From the IMG/VR virus record IMGVR_UViG_3300030294_000155, positions 1 through 24,647 of that record: a DNA stretch of 24,647 nt. One strand, 5' to 3'. The stretch comes from a virus. The number at the start of each line of letters is the position of its first letter. The first letter of the stretch is position 1. Below are positions 110-22,979 of the stretch, one piece after another. The notes beneath the pieces were generated by a model, which searched no databases, was not told the origin of the DNA, and saw only the letters and a program-made list of their open reading frames with translations. Both the position numbers and the translations under genes were made by a program.

Positions 110-1231
110 ATGGACAGAGTATTAGCACATATAGAAAAAATACATAATATCAGACCAATTATGGGTGCTGACAGAATTGAGCAAGTTAACGTTTTGGGTT
201 GGAATGTAATTACCAAGAAAGGTGAATTTAAGGATGGTGATTTAGGTGTTTATATCGAAATTGACAGTAGAGTACCATCTGATAATCCAGAATTTGAATT
301 TCTTGAAAGTAAACATTTTAAAGTCAAAACCATGAATATGAGAAAAACAACCAGTCAAGGTTTAGTTTTACCTTTATCAATTCTTCCAGATAACCATTAC
401 GTAATTGGTGATGATGTTACTGAAATTCTTGGTATCACTAAGATTTTAGAAGATTATGAGCCACCTAAAGTTGATATGATAGTAAAAATTCAAGGCAGAC
501 ATAAAAAATTATTTAAGAATAAATTGTTTAAGCGTTTAATTAAGCACCAATGGTTTAAAGATTTTGTAATACATATGTTAAAGCCAAAGGTTAATTTAAA
601 TAAGTTTCCTTATTGGGTTGTTAAAACAGATGAGGAAAGAGTACAAAATATGCCAAACGTACTTCAAAATAAAGCACCATTTATGGTCACAGAGAAACTT
701 GATGGTACTTCAACTACGTTTACTTTAAAGAAAGTCAAAAATAACAAATATCAATTTATCATTTGTTCTCGTTCTGTTGCACAACCAACTCCAAGCAAAA
801 AGTGTTTTTATGACGATAATGTATATTGGGAAATGGCTTTAAAATATAATGTAGAATCAACTTTAAGAGACTTAATTGGTGACAATGATTACATAACATT
901 ACAGGGCGAAACAGTAGGTGAGACAATCCAAAAAAATAAGTATCATATTACTGGAAGAGATTTTTATGCTTTCAATTTGATTAAAGAAAAAGACGGTAAG
1001 ATTGATAGCATTAGTGCAAGAGACATTCTGTCCAAATATGGTATTAAATTCGTTCCTATTGTTCAAACTGATTACATATTACCAGATACTATTGATGAAT
1101 TAATGACATTTTCAACAGGCAAATCAAACATCTATGATACACTTAGAGAGGGTTATGTGTACAGAAATTATGATTTAGGTATTTCCTTTAAGTGTGTAAG
1201 CAACGAATTCTTATTACAGTGGAGTCTATAA
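110..1231 (+). CDS. RNA ligase, Rnl5 (DRB0094) type
   Basis: 373 aa, predicted ATP-dependent RNA ligase that would seal 3'-OH/5'-phosphate RNA breaks. The nucleotidyltransferase motifs are in order: motif I TEKLDGTS with the adenylated Lys at 196, motif III-like QGETVGE near 265-271 with FYAFNL at 285-290, motif IV EGYVYR at 347-352, and motif V SFKCVSNEFL with Lys361. Residues 1-115 form a separate N-terminal module (GADRIEQV, GWNVITKKGEFKDGDLGVYIEIDS), as in the Deinococcus Rnl5 family, where it is an OB-like domain. Length fits that family. The start has a very strong GGGAGGT site 8 nt upstream. A nucleotidyltransferase and a kinase-HD protein follow within 5 kb, which suggests a phage RNA-repair set. 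Substrate is not visible from sequence. Confidence 0.9.
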   Translation: MDRVLAHIEKIHNIRPIMGADRIEQVNVLGWNVITKKGEFKDGDLGVYIEIDSRVPSDNPEFEFLESKHFKVKTMNMRKTTSQGLVLPLSILPDNHYVIGDDVTEILGITKILEDYEPPKVDMIVKIQGRHKKLFKNKLFKRLIKHQWFKDFVIHMLKPKVNLNKFPYWVVKTDEERVQNMPNVLQNKAPFMVTEKLDGTSTTFTLKKVKNNKYQFIICSRSVAQPTPSKKCFYDDNVYWEMALKYNVESTLRDLIGDNDYITLQGETVGETIQKNKYHITGRDFYAFNLIKEKDGKIDSISARDILSKYGIKFVPIVQTDYILPDTIDELMTFSTGKSNIYDTLREGYVYRNYDLGISFKCVSNEFLLQWSL

Positions 1232-4148: not shown

Positions 4149-4556
4149 ATGGAAACTATTTATGAAGAAAAAGTTATAAAACGTCCTGTTAAGTTTATAG
4201 CAAAAGACGGAAGAGAATTTCATAGTTTACTAGATTGTGCAAATTATGAAAAACAAATAAGTATTAATGATGCCATAAAAAATATACCACATTTTGAATT
4301 TGATATTGACGATATGACAGATTGGTTTTATATCACATCTGAATCTGATTTTATATCAGTAATTCAGTTTATGTTTTTAACTGGTTATTTACATATACCT
4401 ATATATAAATATCATAATGAACTTGGATGGTATGGGTTTTCATTTGAATCTAATAATGATAGTGCTGACGAAGTTTATTATACCCCATTAAAATCAGTCA
4501 CAGATAATTATGATAAATTTATCAGTGTAATAAATAGTAAAGGAGTAACGAAATGA
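4149..4556 (+). CDS. hypothetical phage protein
   Basis: 135 aa. The N-terminus (YEEKVIKRPVKFIAKDGREFHSLLDCANYE, in pieces) is of a type seen in several Gram-positive phages, where a short strand-turn-strand is followed by a His-Ser-Leu-x-Asp helix; function unknown. The rest is acidic (FEFDIDDMTDWFYI, SESDFISVIQF). No metal or nucleotide motif. AAAGGATG lies about 10 nt before the ATG. Its stop overlaps the start of the nucleotidyltransferase gene (ATGA), so expression of the two is probably coupled. Confidence 0.75.
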   Translation: METIYEEKVIKRPVKFIAKDGREFHSLLDCANYEKQISINDAIKNIPHFEFDIDDMTDWFYITSESDFISVIQFMFLTGYLHIPIYKYHNELGWYGFSFESNNDSADEVYYTPLKSVTDNYDKFISVINSKGVTK

Positions 4557-5422
4557 ACAAAGAACGAATTTTAGAAATATTACAAAAATACAAAGAAGAC
4601 TTAGAAAAAGATGGATATAAAGTAGCTTATATAGCATGTTATGGAAGTAATAACTATGGTTTAGATTTGTACACAGATACATATAAATCTGACTTAGATG
4701 CCAAAGCGGTTATTGTGCCAGACTTAGATGCCTTAGTTTATAATAGCAAACCTGTTTCATTTGTCAAAAAAATGGAATTTGGAGAATGTAACATTCAAGA
4801 TATTAGGGTATATATGACATCTTTAATCAAAGCAAATCCTGCGTATATTGAGACTCTTTATACTGATTATTTTATTATTGACGATAATTTTAAAAGTGAA
4901 ATGTCACAAATTATTTCCAAAAGAGACGATCTAGTATACGCTCTAAGAGGACAATTTATGAGAGCAATATACGGAATGATGTGTGAAAAAGATGTTGCAT
5001 TGTGCCATCCATATCCTGCAACAATGGCTAAGATAGAGAAATGGGGTTGGGATGGGAAACAATTAAGTCATAACTATAGACTGTTATGCTTAATGACTAA
5101 TTATTTTTTTGACAATAAGCCATTAAAAGAGTGTTTCTGTCCAGATCAAGTAAGCAAAACTATAATTATTAACTATAAATTAAATCAAACTCCTACTGGT
5201 GTAGACGAAGCAACGTATATAAGCAATCGATATGTACAACTAGGTAAATCTATGAGAGCAGAAATATTATCAAAGCTAGATGAAAAAATAATCGACTATT
5301 CTGTCAAGGATGAAATCATCGCTTTATCGAGAAACATTATTAAAAGTCATATCGAAAAAAGCGTTTCATATAAGTGTTTTTATGATATGATCGATAAATT
5401 AAATGCGTGTAATTATGACTAA
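4553..5422 (+). CDS. RlaP-type nucleotidyltransferase (pol beta superfamily)
   Basis: 289 aa. The minimal nucleotidyltransferase signature is present: YGSNNYGL at about residues 30-37 (Gly-Ser), then SDLDAKAV at about 45-52 with the metal-binding Asp-x-Asp. This matches the family known as RlaP (Pfam RlaP / COG3541), which comparative genomics has linked to RNA-repair operons. The rest is helical, with ETLYTDY and ALRGQFMRAIYGMM segments typical of the family. Reaction and substrate are not known for the family. Lying between an RNA ligase and a kinase-HD protein, it may add or remove nucleotides or tag RNA ends during repair; that is inference. Start overlaps the previous stop (ATGA), with AAAGGAG upstream. 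Confidence 0.82.
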   Translation: MNKERILEILQKYKEDLEKDGYKVAYIACYGSNNYGLDLYTDTYKSDLDAKAVIVPDLDALVYNSKPVSFVKKMEFGECNIQDIRVYMTSLIKANPAYIETLYTDYFIIDDNFKSEMSQIISKRDDLVYALRGQFMRAIYGMMCEKDVALCHPYPATMAKIEKWGWDGKQLSHNYRLLCLMTNYFFDNKPLKECFCPDQVSKTIIINYKLNQTPTGVDEATYISNRYVQLGKSMRAEILSKLDEKIIDYSVKDEIIALSRNIIKSHIEKSVSYKCFYDMIDKLNACNYD

Positions 5423-5674: not shown

Positions 5675-6586
5675 ATGCAAAAATTTATAATGTTGGTAGG
5701 AATATCTGGTTCTGGAAAATCTACATATTCTAAATTATATACAGATATTTCAATGGAATTCAAAATTCATTCTTCTGATGCTTTAAGAGCAGAATTATAC
5801 GGAAATGAAAGTATAAAAGGAAATAACAATGAGTTATTTAGTGAACTACATAAACGTATAATTTCAGACCTAACAAATGGCAAAAGTGTTATTTACGACG
5901 CTTGTAATCTTTCATGTAAACGTAGGATGGCTTTTTTACAAAGTATCAAAAAAATAGATTGTTATAAGGAATGCGTGGTAATCGCTACACCTTATGAACA
6001 ATGCCTAGTAAATAATTGTAAAAGAGAACGCAAAGTTCCAGAAGACGTTATTAAAAGAATGTATATGAGTTTTTGTTTTCCTGCATACTTTGAGGGTTGG
6101 AATAACATAAGCATACATTATTATAACAGTTTAATTACAGGATATAAAATTAAAGATTTAAATATCCTAAATACATATGATCAACATAATCCAAATCACA
6201 CACTTACCCTCGGTGGTCATATGAAAAAATGTGGTGATTATGTTTCTTCACAAATTAATAGCCGTAAAGAATTGGATTTGGCGGCATATTTACACGATAT
6301 TGGTAAACCATTTTGTCAAACATACCAAAATACTAAAGGAGAAACAACAGAAAAAGCACACTATTATTGTCACGAAAATGTGGGTGCTTATCTTGCTATG
6401 TTTTATTTATATAATGAAAATTGTATAAATAGTGAAATTGTTGAAATTTGTACACTCATTCAAAATCATATGAAACCATATTTCTTTGAGTTTGAAAAGA
6501 CAAGAAAAAGATATAATGATTTATTTGGTGATAGGCTATATAATGACATTATGTTAATAAACAAAGGCGATAGAGTAGCACATTAA
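5675..6586 (+). CDS. polynucleotide kinase-like P-loop domain fused to HD phosphohydrolase
   Basis: 303 aa. Residues 1-150 are a T4-Pnk-like kinase: Walker A GISGSGKST at 9-17, SSDALR with the likely catalytic Asp35, DACNLS at 75-80, and a basic lid RERKVPEDVIKRM at 117-129. Residues about 165-300 are an HD domain: His182 (GGH), the HD pair at 207-208 (LHDIGK), His229 and His233 (KAHYYCHEN), His265 (QNHMKP). The kinase would phosphorylate 5'-OH ends. By analogy with bacterial HD-Pnk enzymes the HD domain could remove 2',3'-cyclic or 3'-phosphates, making this a two-headed end-healing enzyme, but the domain order is reversed from Runella HD-Pnk. The start follows AAAGGAGC. The stop codon is inside the terminator hairpin. 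Confidence 0.85.
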   Translation: MQKFIMLVGISGSGKSTYSKLYTDISMEFKIHSSDALRAELYGNESIKGNNNELFSELHKRIISDLTNGKSVIYDACNLSCKRRMAFLQSIKKIDCYKECVVIATPYEQCLVNNCKRERKVPEDVIKRMYMSFCFPAYFEGWNNISIHYYNSLITGYKIKDLNILNTYDQHNPNHTLTLGGHMKKCGDYVSSQINSRKELDLAAYLHDIGKPFCQTYQNTKGETTEKAHYYCHENVGAYLAMFYLYNENCINSEIVEICTLIQNHMKPYFFEFEKTRKRYNDLFGDRLYNDIMLINKGDRVAH

Positions 6587-6689: not shown

Positions 6690-6718
6690 TTGACTATTTG
6701 TATGATTTGCACTATAAT
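6690..6718 (+). promoter_or_regulatory. sigma-A type promoter P2 for the Ro60-like gene
   Basis: TTGACT (6690-6695), 17-nt spacer, TATAAT (6713-6718). Flanks share AATTCACTTGACTATTT with promoter P3 and ACTATAATATA with all four promoters. Transcription would start near 6725, giving a leader of about 205 nt before the ATG at 6931, far longer than the leaders of P1, P3 and P4. That leader contains two of the three related RNA elements. Confidence 0.88.
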
Positions 6719-6739: not shown

Positions 6740-6801
6740 AAGACACTAACAGCGATACATATAAAGAATTTACTGTTAATAAATCATCTTTAATGTGTCT
6801 T
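6740..6801 (+). ncRNA. structured RNA element E1 in the leader of the Ro60-like gene
   Basis: The outer stem AAGACAC (6740-6746) pairs with GTGTCTT (6795-6801). It is stacked directly on the inner stem TAACAG (6747-6752) with CTGTTA (6773-6778), which encloses a 20-nt loop. A 16-nt unpaired segment on the 3' side ends in TTTAAT, just before the closing strand. ACAGC begins nine bases after the start of the stem, followed by an A/U run containing ATATAAA. The same plan recurs at 6822-6889 and 8447-8502. It could be a small RNA bound by the Ro60-like protein or a cis-regulatory leader structure. It carries no ORF. Confidence 0.6.
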
Positions 6802-6821
6802 GATATTAACCCACACCGATT

Positions 6822-6889
6822 AATTTTAGTCACTGACAGCAAAATATATAAAAATAATGTTTTCTATTATTATTAAGGTGGCTAGAATT
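6822..6889 (+). ncRNA. structured RNA element E3 in the leader of the Ro60-like gene
   Basis: A 13-bp stem pairs AATTTTAGTCACT (6822-6834) with GGTGGCTAGAATT (6877-6889), with three G-U pairs. Its upper 7 bp (AGTCACT/GGTGGCT) occupy the place of the AAGACAC stem of E1 but have a different sequence. The 5' strand is followed by GACAGC and an A/U run containing ATATAAA. An inner hairpin AATAAT (6853-6858) with ATTATT (6866-6871) has a U-rich loop. ATTAA precedes the 3' strand, as TTTAAT does in the other copies. It lies 20 nt after E1 and 41 nt before the start codon. Confidence 0.55.
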
Positions 6890-6930
6890 TAGAACACATC
6901 TAAATTATTAAATTAAAAGGAGAAATTGAA

Positions 6931-8424
6931 ATGGCTAATTTATTTGTTAATGGATTAAAAACAGAGGAAAATAAAACTTATACGACAAATGGTTGTCAAG
7001 CACTCAAATCAACTAATAACTCGTTATTGGATTTGTTTGGAAGTATTGGTTCACTGCGTTCTCGTACAGAAGACGATATTACAAGAATGTTTTCTTTAGC
7101 ATTTGCAGAAGATAAATTACTTGCAACTAAGATGAGTTTTTATTGTAGAGATATTCGTGACGGTGGTCAAGGCGAAAGAAATACACCTAAAGTTATTTGG
7201 AAGTTCCTTGCTAAAAATTATCCAGAGATTATAAAGAAAAATATCGCAAATATCGCATATTTTGGTAGATTTGATGATCTTTACTGTTTAATTGGTACTC
7301 CTGTTGAGGAAGATGTTTGGAAATTTATTTATACACAGATCATCGAAGATATTAAAAATATGAACGCAAATAAACCTATTTCTTTAGCGGCTAAATGGTT
7401 GAAATCTTGCAATGCAAGTTCTAAAGAAACAATCAAACTTGGTAAATTGACAGCTAAAAATTTACACTTATCGCCAAAAGATTATAGACACGTTCTATCT
7501 TCTTTAAGAGCATATATTAATGTTACCGAGGTTAAAATGTCTGCTAATAAATGGGATAAGATTGATTACGAAAAAGTACCATCTAAAGCTATGAATATAT
7601 ACAGAAACGCTTTTAAGTCACACGATACAGAGGGGTTCGCTGACTATATTGGAGCAGTAGTCAAGGGTGAAGCAAAAATTAACGCAACTACTTTATTCCC
7701 TTATGATATTGCGGAGAAATATTTAGGTACATCATACATGTGGGGTGGAAACTTCCGTGGATATTCTTCACAAATCGATCCAGTTTTAGAAGAGCAATGG
7801 AAAGCATTGCCTAATTATGTTGACGGAGAAAATAATGTTTTGGTGATGGCTGATGTTTCTGGTTCAATGAGAGGTAGACCTATGGCAACTTCTGTTGGAC
7901 TTGCTACATATTTTGCTGAAAGAAATAGTGGTGCTTTTAAAAACCTATTTATGAGTTTTAGTTCAAGACCTCAATTAGTTGAACTAAAAGGAGAATCTCT
8001 TTACGAAAGAATTACTAACGTAATGAAAACGCATTGGGATATGAACACTAATATTGAATCGGCATTTAACATGGTATTAATGACGGCTTTAAAAAATAAC
8101 GTTCCTGCAAACCAGATGCCTAAAGCTATTGTCATTATTTCAGATATGCAATTCGATTCAGCAAGTGGTAGAGACTGGACTTTCTATGATAAAATGAAAA
8201 CTAAATTTAACACAGCAGGATACGAAATCCCTAATATAGTATTCTGGAATGTTAATGATACGCAAGACACATTCCATGCGTTTTCTGACTATCATGGTGT
8301 TCAAATGGCAAGCGGTCAATCTGCAAGTACATTTAAGCAAATACTTGCTAATTTTGATTCTACACCTTATGAGAGTATGTTAAAGACATTAAATTCAGAG
8401 GTATATAATAGGATTTCAATTTAA
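6931..8424 (+). CDS. DUF2828 / TROVE-like (Ro60-like) protein with vWA domain
   Basis: 497 aa. The N-terminal helical-repeat part (about 40-260) has the hallmarks of the DUF2828/TROVE group: YCRDIRDGGQGER at 71-83, IAYFGRFDDL at 108-117, KINATTLFPYDIAEKYLG at 249-266. The C-terminal vWA domain keeps the metal-site pattern: DVSGS at 308-312, Thr373 in MNTN, Asp405 in ISDMQFD. Ro60/Rsr proteins bind Y RNAs and misfolded RNAs in a toroid closed by the vWA domain. DUF2828 members are a distant branch, common in phages, with no settled function, so an RNA-chaperone role is inference. Support comes from the RNA-repair genes upstream and the three related RNA elements flanking the gene. AAAGGAG precedes the ATG; transcription is from P2. 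Confidence 0.82.
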   Translation: MANLFVNGLKTEENKTYTTNGCQALKSTNNSLLDLFGSIGSLRSRTEDDITRMFSLAFAEDKLLATKMSFYCRDIRDGGQGERNTPKVIWKFLAKNYPEIIKKNIANIAYFGRFDDLYCLIGTPVEEDVWKFIYTQIIEDIKNMNANKPISLAAKWLKSCNASSKETIKLGKLTAKNLHLSPKDYRHVLSSLRAYINVTEVKMSANKWDKIDYEKVPSKAMNIYRNAFKSHDTEGFADYIGAVVKGEAKINATTLFPYDIAEKYLGTSYMWGGNFRGYSSQIDPVLEEQWKALPNYVDGENNVLVMADVSGSMRGRPMATSVGLATYFAERNSGAFKNLFMSFSSRPQLVELKGESLYERITNVMKTHWDMNTNIESAFNMVLMTALKNNVPANQMPKAIVIISDMQFDSASGRDWTFYDKMKTKFNTAGYEIPNIVFWNVNDTQDTFHAFSDYHGVQMASGQSASTFKQILANFDSTPYESMLKTLNSEVYNRISI

Positions 8425-8433
8425 TCCTATTAT
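8405..8433 (+). terminator. terminator-like hairpin over the stop codon of the Ro60-like gene
   Basis: An 11-bp stem, ATAATAGGATT (8405-8415) with AATCCTATTAT (8423-8433), has a 7-nt loop and is followed by TATATA rather than a U run. It overlaps the last codons, as the hairpin at 6585 does. With so weak a U tract it may act in processing or 3'-end protection and allow read-through into the element at 8447. Confidence 0.5.
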
Positions 8434-8446
8434 TATATATAAATTA

Positions 8447-8502
8447 AAGACATATACAGCAATATTATATAAAATATGTATGGTATATTTTTAATATGTC
8501 TT
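8447..8502 (+). ncRNA. structured RNA element E2 downstream of the Ro60-like gene
   Basis: The outer stem AAGACAT (8447-8453) pairs with ATGTCTT (8496-8502) and can grow to 9 bp. Directly above it, ATAC (8454-8457) can pair with GTAT (8478-8481). A 14-nt segment ending in TTTAAT lies before the 3' strand. ACAGC starts nine bases into the element, as in E1, followed by A/U sequence with ATATAAA. Relative to E1, the seventh outer pair changes from C-G to U-A, so pairing is kept. It sits between the gene's hairpin and promoter P3 and has no promoter of its own, so it would be made by read-through. Confidence 0.6.
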
Positions 8503-8544
8503 GTTAATAATATATATGAATTAAAAATTCTTTCTGTAATTCAC

Positions 8545-8573
8545 TTGACTATTTTAGTAATTTGTACTATAAT
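8545..8573 (+). promoter_or_regulatory. sigma-A type promoter P3
   Basis: TTGACT (8545-8550), 17-nt spacer, TATAAT (8568-8573), with the shared ACTTGAC and ACTATAATATA blocks. From AATTCACTTG through the early leader (GTAAG, then AAATAAATAA) it is nearly a copy of P2. It drives the gene at 8610 and probably the recombination and replication genes that follow. Confidence 0.88.
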
Positions 8574-21078: not shown

Positions 21079-21386
21079 TGATTTTTGGGCGCAAGTAAAA
21101 CATTCCGTAAAATCGATGAACCCTAAGTTATAAAATATGGGAATATCGAGAACCCACTGCATCATAGGGGTTTGTAACGCATAGATGGTGAGCGATATGA
21201 AAGCAATAATCCATCCAAGAGTACGGAACTAACAATTTTTAACATCACTCCCATGATGTTAAAAATTGTTAGAAAATATATGCTAGACTGGTCTGAATTG
21301 ACAGACGTATCGTTTAATTGGGTAAAGAAAACGTATGAGAGAAATCTCCAGAAGTAAGGGATAAAAAGCCTTTACGACAATATTCG
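21079..21386 (+). ncRNA. ORF-less group I-type intron in nrdJ
   Basis: 308 nt between the codons for NPCA and EEPLPAGGSC, so exact removal restores the reductase. P1 can be drawn: exon end CTTGTGCT (21071-21078) pairs over 8 bp with GGCGCAAG (21088-21095), and the last exon U faces G, the required U-G at a 5' splice site. The intron ends in G (21386). The exon sequence AAGAA at 21388-21392 can pair with the U run 21082-21086 as a P10. Other helices: a perfect 19-bp hairpin (21229-21247/21254-21272), GTCTG/CAGAC (21291-21306), GAGA-GAAA-TCTC (21337-21348), GTAAGGG/CCTTTAC (21354-21375). The P3-P7 core was not resolved. No reading frame of note. Confidence 0.85.
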
Positions 21387-22979
21387 GAAGAACCTTTGCC
21401 CGCAGGAGGAAGTTGTTTACTTGGCAGTATCAACCTTTCAGAATTTGTCAAAGATAACGATTTTGATTTTGATGGATTTAAACACACTGTTGATGTATCC
21501 GTTAAGGCACTTAATGATATCTTAGAAGAGGGTTTACCACTTCATCCATTGCAAGAACAAAGAGATAGTGTAGCAAAATGGAGACAAATCGGGTTAGGAA
21601 TGTTTGGATTAGCTGATCTATTAATTAAACTAGGTATTACATATGGAGATAATAATTCAATTTTTTTATGTGATAAAATCGGGAAAATTATGATTAACCA
21701 AGCATTGCAAACATCAGCTATGTTAGCCAAAGAATATGGTGCTTTTCCTGCATGTAATATTGAAGAAATTATGTCAACTGACTTTTTCAAAGATAATGCA
21801 ACCAACGAAACTAAAATGTTTGTTAAAACTTATGGATTAAGAAACTCTCAATTACTTACAATTGCACCTACTGGTACGCTATCTACTATGCTTAGAATAT
21901 CTGGTGGTATAGAACCTATATTCGCAAATTCATATGAGCGCACGACACAATCATTACATGGCAAAGATGTAATTTATAAAGTATATACACCAATTGTAGA
22001 ACAATATCTTAAAGACCATAATATAACTGATGAAAAAGATTTGCCAAAATATTTTATTACATCACAGAAATTACATTATACAAATCGTATTAATATGCAA
22101 TCAACTTGGCAACGTCATATCGATGCATCTATAAGTTCAACCGTAAATGTTCCTAATGAATTTACTATTGAGAACGTAGAAGATTTATATATGTATGGAT
22201 ATACAATGGGATTAAAAGGTATTACAATTTACAGAGATGGATGTAAAAGAAGTGGTGTTCTTTCAACGGCAGATTCAACTAAGACAGAAGAAGCTGAAAC
22301 TAAAGTTGAAGACGATCAAGAACAAGAAAATTTCTTAAAACGTGGTGATATTCTTTTAGTAAGTGACGATGAAATTGGTAAAAAACGTGATCTTGTAACT
22401 GGATGTGGTACATTACATTGTAACGCTTGGTTCGATCCAGAGACAGGAAATTTGCTTGAAACATACTTTAGCAAGGGTTCAACTGGTGGATGTTTAAACT
22501 CATTAACAGGGCTTTCTCGTATGATTTCTTTAAGTGCAAGACTTGGTGGAGATATCCACACTATTATTGATCAGTTAAACAGTTGTGGTATATGCCCATC
22601 ATATCATGATAGAACTAGAACACTACACGACACATCAAAAGGTACTTGTTGCCCTGTAGCAATTGGAAACGCACTATTAGATATGTACAAAGATGTACGT
22701 AGTGATTTAGGATTAGATGATGATGAAGACGAAGATGAAGATAATTCAGATAAGATAGATATTGAGAGCGTAGAAGAAATGAATAAAGCGGTTAAAAATA
22801 TCTCAAAGATCACAATTAAAAATGCTGAAATTATCGGAAATGTTTTAAAATCTATTAAGCCTAAATTAGTATCAGAACAAGATTTAATTGACAATGATAT
22901 CTGTCCTCAATGTGGAGATAAATTATTACATAGTGGTGGTTGTATTCAGTGTAGTTGTGGTTGGAGCAAATGTCTATAA
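21387..22979 (+). CDS. nrdJ: class II ribonucleotide reductase, exon 2
   Basis: 530 codons joined in frame to exon 1. It begins EEPLPAGGSCLLGSINLSEF, supplying the active-site Glu. Blocks typical of the alpha-barrel follow: QIGLGMFGLADLLIKLGITYG (given as a region near 21592), LLTIAPTGTLSTML, ITIYRDGCKRSGVL. Then a TSCPD domain (CGTLHCNAWFDPETG, STGGCLNSLTGLSRM), a very acidic stretch DDDEDEDEDN, and a C-terminal cysteine module CPQCGDKL...CIQCSCGWSKC for metal binding or redox relay. The TSCPD domain and NPCxEP signature point to NrdJ rather than class I NrdA/E. Unspliced RNA could yield this part only from an internal codon such as TTG 21396, which would lack the active-site Asn and Cys. 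Confidence 0.93.
   Translation, partial: EEPLPAGGSCLLGSINLSEFVKDNDFDFDGFKHTVDVSVKALNDILEEGLPLHPLQEQRDSVAKWRQIGLGMFGLADLLIKLGITYGDNNSIFLCDKIGKIMINQALQTSAMLAKEYGAFPACNIEEIMSTDFFKDNATNETKMFVKTYGLRNSQLLTIAPTGTLSTMLRISGGIEPIFANSYERTTQSLHGKDVIYKVYTPIVEQYLKDHNITDEKDLPKYFITSQKLHYTNRINMQSTWQRHIDASISSTVNVPNEFTIENVEDLYMYGYTMGLKGITIYRDGCKRSGVLSTADSTKTEEAETKVEDDQEQENFLKRGDILLVSDDEIGKKRDLVTGCGTLHCNAWFDPETGNLLETYFSKGSTGGCLNSLTGLSRMISLSARLGGDIHTIIDQLNSCGICPSYHDRTRTLHDTSKGTCCPVAIGNALLDMYKDVRSDLGLDDDEDEDEDNSDKIDIESVEEMNKAVKNISKITIKNAEIIGNVLKSIKPKLVSEQDLIDNDICPQCGDKLLHSGGCIQCSCGWSKCL

Follow-up and report, generated by a model that had tools for sequence, protein, structure and literature searches.

We describe here a structured RNA element, termed K, and the phage Ro60-like protein beside whose gene it lies. 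The window, i.e. the whole stretch of DNA analysed (IMG/VR record IMGVR_UViG_3300030294_000155, 24,647 nt, along which element positions are counted), carries three K elements, E1, E3 and E2, around one such gene. The existence of K RNAs and their association with the Ro60-like protein are very likely. As a whole account we consider it probable that they are phage Y-like RNAs, carried by the Ro60-like protein and showing pieces of tRNA.

The K element and its covariation

K consists of a strand A (consensus RRGRYNC), two bases, the sequence ACAGCAA, an insert, a complementary strand B and an unpaired G. It occurs in two forms, an upstream-type element (form U) and a form in which the K hairpin lies in the anticodon arm of a tRNA and is followed by ACAGCAA (form T). 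Among 307 distinct candidates, mutual information was 0.78–1.7 bits at all seven pairs and 0.09 at pair 8, and the base following strand B was G in 87 %. Since these candidates and the 40 rows of our alignment were picked for pairing, the less biased points are those conserved without being required in selection, namely the strand A consensus, the G after strand B and the ending of covariation at pair 8. In the 40 elements the clamp was 98.6 % paired, with both-sided changes at all 7 pairs, and an inner 5 bp hairpin, which was not used in selection, was 69 % paired, with both-sided changes at all 5 pairs; RNAalifold also returned the 7 bp clamp. A scan of 85 loci gave 624 occurrences of ACAGCA on the strand of the gene against 211 on the opposite strand, the corresponding figures being 275 and 28 for ACAGCA with a downstream partner helix and 74 and 9 for ACAGCA with an adjacent hairpin. 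Permuted 6-mer controls mostly gave approximately 20–50 (partner helix) and 3–20 (adjacent hairpin), the higher values representing shifted overlaps such as AACAGC.

The elements of the window and the gene that they flank are as follows.

6740–6802, plus strand: E1, a K element with stem AAGACAC/GTGTCTT (6740–6746/6795–6801), ACAGCGA and unpaired G6802
6827–6885, plus strand: E3, a K element with stem TAGTCAC/GTGGCTA (6827–6833/6878–6884), ACAGCAA and unpaired G6885
6931–8424, plus strand: DUF2828/DUF7788 Ro60-like protein of 497 aa (Pfam PF11443 and PF25043; phrog_850 'RNA-binding protein')
8447–8503, plus strand: E2, a K element with stem AAGACAT/ATGTCTT (8447–8453/8496–8502), ACAGCAA and unpaired G8503

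The plan common to all three is a 7 nt strand A, two bases, ACAGCAA (ACAGCGA in E1), an insert of about 33–39 nt, a 7 nt strand B and G. The inner hairpin has 6 bp and the 7 nt loop GTTTTCT in E3, and 7 bp and the 7 nt loop GTATGGT in E2. Model R1 scored E1, E3 and E2 at 52.8, 43.7 and 45.1 bits, values that arise by construction, as all three are among its 40 training rows. The relative L017, whose protein is 76 % identical to that of the window, has the same three elements in the same order, and its E2 stem (AAGATGC/GCATCTT) differs from that of the window by three compensatory pairs. An initial annotation, made from the letters of the window alone, had placed three related structured elements around the gene. 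Its E1 and E2 were exact, each needing only the trailing G (G6802 and G8503), and its E3 is likewise a real element, with a closing stem whose best 7 bp register, TAGTCAC/GTGGCTA, is slightly shifted (6827–6884 plus G6885). The three compensatory pairs of E2, together with covariation of all 7 pairs in the family, agree with its view that the stem is kept while the sequence varies. The ATATAAA run that it listed as a common feature is not conserved, and the inner hairpin that it described is present, the true shared trait being a hairpin with a 7 nt loop.

The Ro60-like protein

The window protein comprises a helical-repeat part and a vWA domain with a MIDAS-type DxSGS motif, and is not matched by the TROVE model PF05731 at E 0.001. 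A PDB sequence search returned only weak vWA matches, and a fold search was needed. With an AlphaFold2 model (predicted local distance difference test score, pLDDT, 91), the seven best PDB matches were all Ro60 (1yvr, E 2.6e-7; 2i91, template modelling score 0.57–0.59), at a structure-aligned identity of 11–13 %. As modelled, the protein has the Ro60 fold, a helical-repeat ring plus a vWA domain. Near its gene lies an RNA-repair set of RNA ligase, nucleotidyltransferase and polynucleotide kinase–HD fusion (window 110–1231, 4553–5422 and 5675–6586).

Association of K with Ro60-like genes

Protein and then profile searches of IMG/VR gave 4 and then at least 80 loci; contigs outside that set are not necessarily unrelated. 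In the flanks of the first relatives read, form U lay upstream of the gene and the second form in nearby tRNA genes, and K adjoins DUF2828/Ro60-like genes in most relatives examined, those of Listeria, Staphylococcus, Campylobacter, Felix-type coliphages and mycobacteriophages among them. In a held-out test on 80 DUF2828 loci from bacterial genome contigs, a position weight matrix trained on the IMG/VR phage loci gave 150 matches on the same strand as the gene and 3 on the opposite strand; matches occurred at 65 of the 80 loci, and 120 of the 150 lay within 500 nt upstream of the gene. The same matrix had no match in the tRNA array of T5, a phage without DUF2828. KVP40 was rejected as a DUF2828-negative control because the gene is present.

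The association also holds when the search starts from the motif. The pattern AAGACNCNNACAGCAAN{18,48}GNGTCTTG had at least 120 matches in IMG/VR, and a version with scrambled core had four. DUF2828 was encoded in 45 of 50 contigs longer than 40 kb from outside the protein-search set (49 obtained with this pattern and one from another search) and in none of the four scrambled-core contigs, the background frequency being 681 of 50,697 phage records. Model R1 found no element in T5 or in any of the four contigs obtained with the scrambled pattern, and matched Campylobacter, Staphylococcus, Enterococcus, Bacillus, Felix-type and mycobacteriophage loci; two Listeria rows and one Rhizobium row were in its training, so its matches there are not independent. 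A separate observation concerns a 192 kb viral contig (G040, the contig behind L201), which has five K elements at approximately 131.6–133.6 kb and no detectable DUF2828/TROVE gene, and which may be a fragment or use another partner protein.

These results bear on two alternative explanations. That the elements are chance repeats without function might be suspected, as the window is A+T-rich and single-sequence free-energy folding, which is uninformative for E1, favours a different structure for it; however, this explanation is refuted by the covariation, the strand bias of 150 to 3 and the co-occurrence in 45 of 50 contigs, and we leave it practically no credence. A small self-cleaving ribozyme or metabolite sensor, of which forms U and T would be circular permutations, accords with short conserved unpaired strands around a variable helix and with the existence of two permuted forms. 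It is nevertheless most improbable, given that no Rfam family matches the elements, that K has a single conserved helix and about eight conserved unpaired bases, and that it is strongly tied to one RNA-binding protein.

tRNA-derived inserts

Among 628 non-redundant inserts, a true tRNA anticodon loop on a hairpin of at least 5 bp was present in 101 (3.3 in shuffles) and a T arm in 107 (0.05 in shuffles). Loops of 7 nt numbered 366, against about 176 in shuffles, and were the sole strongly enriched length; those of 3–6 and 8–11 nt were near the shuffled level, the top excess being at 9 nt (220 vs 164). A permuted order, T arm and then closed acceptor hairpin, was seen in 33 of 731 elements (none in shuffles), E1–E3 of the window not being among them, and the inserts of L088, L075, L067 and L093 have D, anticodon and T arms, with K in the place of the acceptor stem (D arms assigned by eye). 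In E1 the insert contains an anticodon-like hairpin, ATTTA-CTGTTAA-TAAAT, with the loop of tRNA-Asn GUU:

6768–6784, plus strand: anticodon stem–loop mimic within E1, loop CTGTTAA

CTGTTAA is the commonest tRNA anticodon loop in these phages and recurs in the L017 element syntenic to E1. At the level of sequence, therefore, derivation from tRNA, as an anticodon stem–loop, a tRNA body or a permuted tRNA, is shown for a substantial part of the inserts and for E1.

Form T includes the following tRNA-like genes, whose anticodon arm carries a K hairpin and which were recognised by their Rfam tRNA score.

L001, 2623–2736
L002, 939–1060
L004, 4492–4618
L013, 1570–1690
L014, 935–1055 and 1234–1360

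They retain acceptor, D and T arms and, with some 50 additional bases, reach 39.6–49.1 bits, which exceeds the cut-off of the Rfam tRNA model. These genes were overlooked by ARAGORN, and annotation pipelines may misname them. Ordinary tRNA introns do not seem consistent with form T, as insertion points differ and removal, judged by eye, mostly fails to restore the anticodon arm. The same two observations count against a processing or splicing signal, whereby phage RNA enzymes, assisted by the Ro60-like protein as a cofactor, would excise or trim a K hairpin inserted in tRNA transcripts. The intact arms of form T and the ligase and kinase encoded in the window are in keeping with such a signal; form U elements, however, hold no flanking tRNA to mature, and we consider it very unlikely.

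Position of K relative to the gene

Two further features bear on how the window elements might be transcribed.

6690–6718, plus strand: sigma-70/A-type promoter-like site TTGACT-17-TATAAT, 11 of 12 consensus bases, 21 nt before E1
8545–8573, plus strand: promoter-like site TTGACT-17-TATAAT after E2, for the next gene

Given these sites before E1 and after E2, E1, E3, the Ro60-like gene and E2 could, to judge from the letters of the window, share a single transcript; over the whole promoter scan, total sites were no more than in shuffles, i.e. at chance level.

A location so often close to the start of the gene raises the alternative of autoregulation in cis, in which a leader K bound by the Ro60-like protein would repress or stabilize its own message and the tRNA likeness would be a relic of neighbouring tRNA genes. 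The 120 of 150 genome-locus copies that lie upstream on the gene's strand are as this would predict, as are several loci in which strand B stops just before the ribosome-binding site. However, copies also occur downstream of the gene (E2 of the window, Staphylococcus, JoeDirt and Alf5) and, in Bacillus 136, kilobases away among tRNA genes; K is also found in the anticodon arm of tRNA genes; and the anticodon loops stay at 7 nt on covarying stems, unlike mere relics. We therefore regard cis autoregulation as unlikely, though less so than the other alternatives. The multiple copies, variable position and many anticodons are more easily reconciled with an RNA that acts in trans than with a simple switch in the leader.

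Proposed function

Our working hypothesis is that the 7 bp K helix, the ACAGCAA strand and the trailing G would provide a putative grip for the phage DUF2828 protein, K being its likely binding site, while the insert would display a piece of tRNA, either an anticodon stem–loop, a D–anticodon–T body mounted on K or a permuted T–acceptor–D body. The task would probably lie in tRNA quality control during infection, in which the protein-bound mimics, working alongside the phage RNA ligase, polynucleotide kinase and nucleotidyltransferase, could act as decoys or gates towards enzymes that cleave or otherwise handle the anticodons of tRNAs.

Relative to the tRNA genes of these phages, Lys-UUU was over-represented among the anticodons displayed, with 19 of the 101 anticodon-loop inserts against 15 of 361 tRNA genes (odds ratio 5.3, p 7e-6), as was Asn-GUU (14 of 101 against 21 of 361; odds ratio 2.6, p 0.01); as many anticodons were tested, only Lys-UUU is clearly significant. 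The anticodons CAU, UUC, UAA and CCA were absent from the 101. The AriB nuclease of PARIS cleaves tRNA-Lys(UUU), tRNA-Thr(UGU) and tRNA-Asn(GUU), and the corresponding tRNAs from T5 block its action (PMC12409363); U-rich anticodons are also cut by Cas13a (PMC11042736). The excess of Lys-UUU and Asn-GUU, the AriB targets and the RNA-repair genes together make a putative role as decoy or sensor against anticodon nucleases a reasonable suggestion, unproven and with the chances against it. Equally tentative is its elaboration as counter-defence against host anticodon nucleases, in which K RNAs, anchored by protein, would offer decoy anticodons, or would be sensors in which cutting of the anticodon loop releases the Ro60-like protein to act on broken tRNAs.

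Several observations weigh against Y-like RNAs that show tRNA pieces. Most inserts lack an anticodon loop of the strict set, and the 7 nt loops of E3 and E2 match none of that set. The inserts show no enrichment of Thr-UGU, one of the prime targets of AriB. Five of the 50 motif contigs have no detectable DUF2828 or TROVE gene, though these may be fragments; K was recognised neither near the Vibrio D482 gene nor in KVP40, both of which have the protein; and Aeromonas PX29, which also has it, shows only a doubtful K. Finally, the abundant non-coding RNAs of Listeria phage CKA15 (CKA15_059-061) had to be rejected as proof of K expression, being located elsewhere.

If our account is right, the phage Ro60-like proteins (681 phage records) gain a specific candidate RNA partner. 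It points to Y RNAs as a modular platform for mounting differing tRNA pieces, offers a direct route to the function of bacterial Ro60 and Y RNAs, and ties both to phage–host conflict over tRNA.

Other RNAs in the window and in related phages

CKA15_059-061, the most abundant phage transcripts (PMC12282133), correspond to approximately 5416–6000 of L260 (Listeria phage AG20), a region conserved in 53–54 Listeria phage records, in which no K element was found and no Rfam family reached the gathering cut-off. The stable tRNA-like RNAs of T5 (L363, 10285–13950) were likewise rejected as K elements, having no K motif in a phage without DUF2828. At 21081–21395 of the window, some 310 structured bases with no open frame interrupt the ribonucleotide reductase gene between ...AGTNPCA and ...PAGGSCLLGSINL; this insertion looks like an intron, and no Rfam intron family matches it.

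Comparison with known systems

The initial annotation had linked the elements to a Ro60-like gene and a Y-RNA-like role, and had proposed a check by covariation and co-occurrence. The proposed link is supported, in that homologous elements adjoin related DUF2828 genes, the stems covary strongly and the motif co-occurs with the gene in the motif-first test; what it overlooked was the tRNA mimicry of many inserts. Its statement that no such RNA was described for phage DUF2828 proteins is partly right. Y RNAs were found in mycobacteriophages by Chen et al. (2014), as that study is cited in PMC12282133, and a YrlA-like stretch of mycobacteriophage JoeDirt sits within a K clamp. In general terms only, jumbo-phage TROVE proteins have been tied to a tRNA-like partner (PMC7824862). 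In the literature examined we found no description of the K motif, its breadth or its anticodon stem–loop cargo, a prior account in Chen et al. (2014) or Sim et al. (2020) being possible; K RNAs are apparently a widespread and undescribed phage RNA family.

Rfam gave two unrelated weak matches on the window (E up to 5), none of them on E1–E3, and no Y RNA family above cut-off on the relatives. Like Y RNAs, K elements lie near a Ro60-type gene. The bacterial Y RNA YrlA (RF02553) has a tRNA-like domain (Chen et al., 2014, as reported in PMC7790460 and PMC12282133), and K resembles it in being encoded next to a Ro60-type gene, in having paired ends around a tRNA-like module and, in some inserts, in the T–acceptor–D permutation. 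The best YrlA score, 39.8 bits in JoeDirt, is below the gathering cut-off of 69 bits; this match lies within TGGACTC-ta-GCAGCAA ... GAGTCCA-G and is flanked by two further K elements. K differs from YrlA in its own clamp (ACAGCAA and trailing G), its tandem copies and its anticodon stem–loop or other tRNA cargo, which the YrlA model lacks.

With the Y RNAs of vertebrates and Deinococcus, in which an end stem is the Ro60 site and a variable loop the effector part (PMC4726728), K shares small size, an end stem that is a putative Ro60 site and a variable loop. It differs in that it has no Rfam match, the Ro-binding helix having been compared through Rfam only, and in that its inserts mimic tRNA. 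The window protein, for its part, shares with Ro60/Rsr (TROVE) the fold and the vWA domain with MIDAS-type motif, and stands apart as a DUF2828/DUF7788 protein of low identity with no TROVE match. The anti-PARIS tRNAs of T5 (PMC12409363) have in common with K the Lys-UUU and Asn-GUU anticodons in phage RNAs and possibly an opponent. T5, however, deploys whole tRNAs, whereas form U K RNAs are isolated anticodon arms or bodies which, because the normal acceptor stem is absent, should not be aminoacylated like normal tRNAs.
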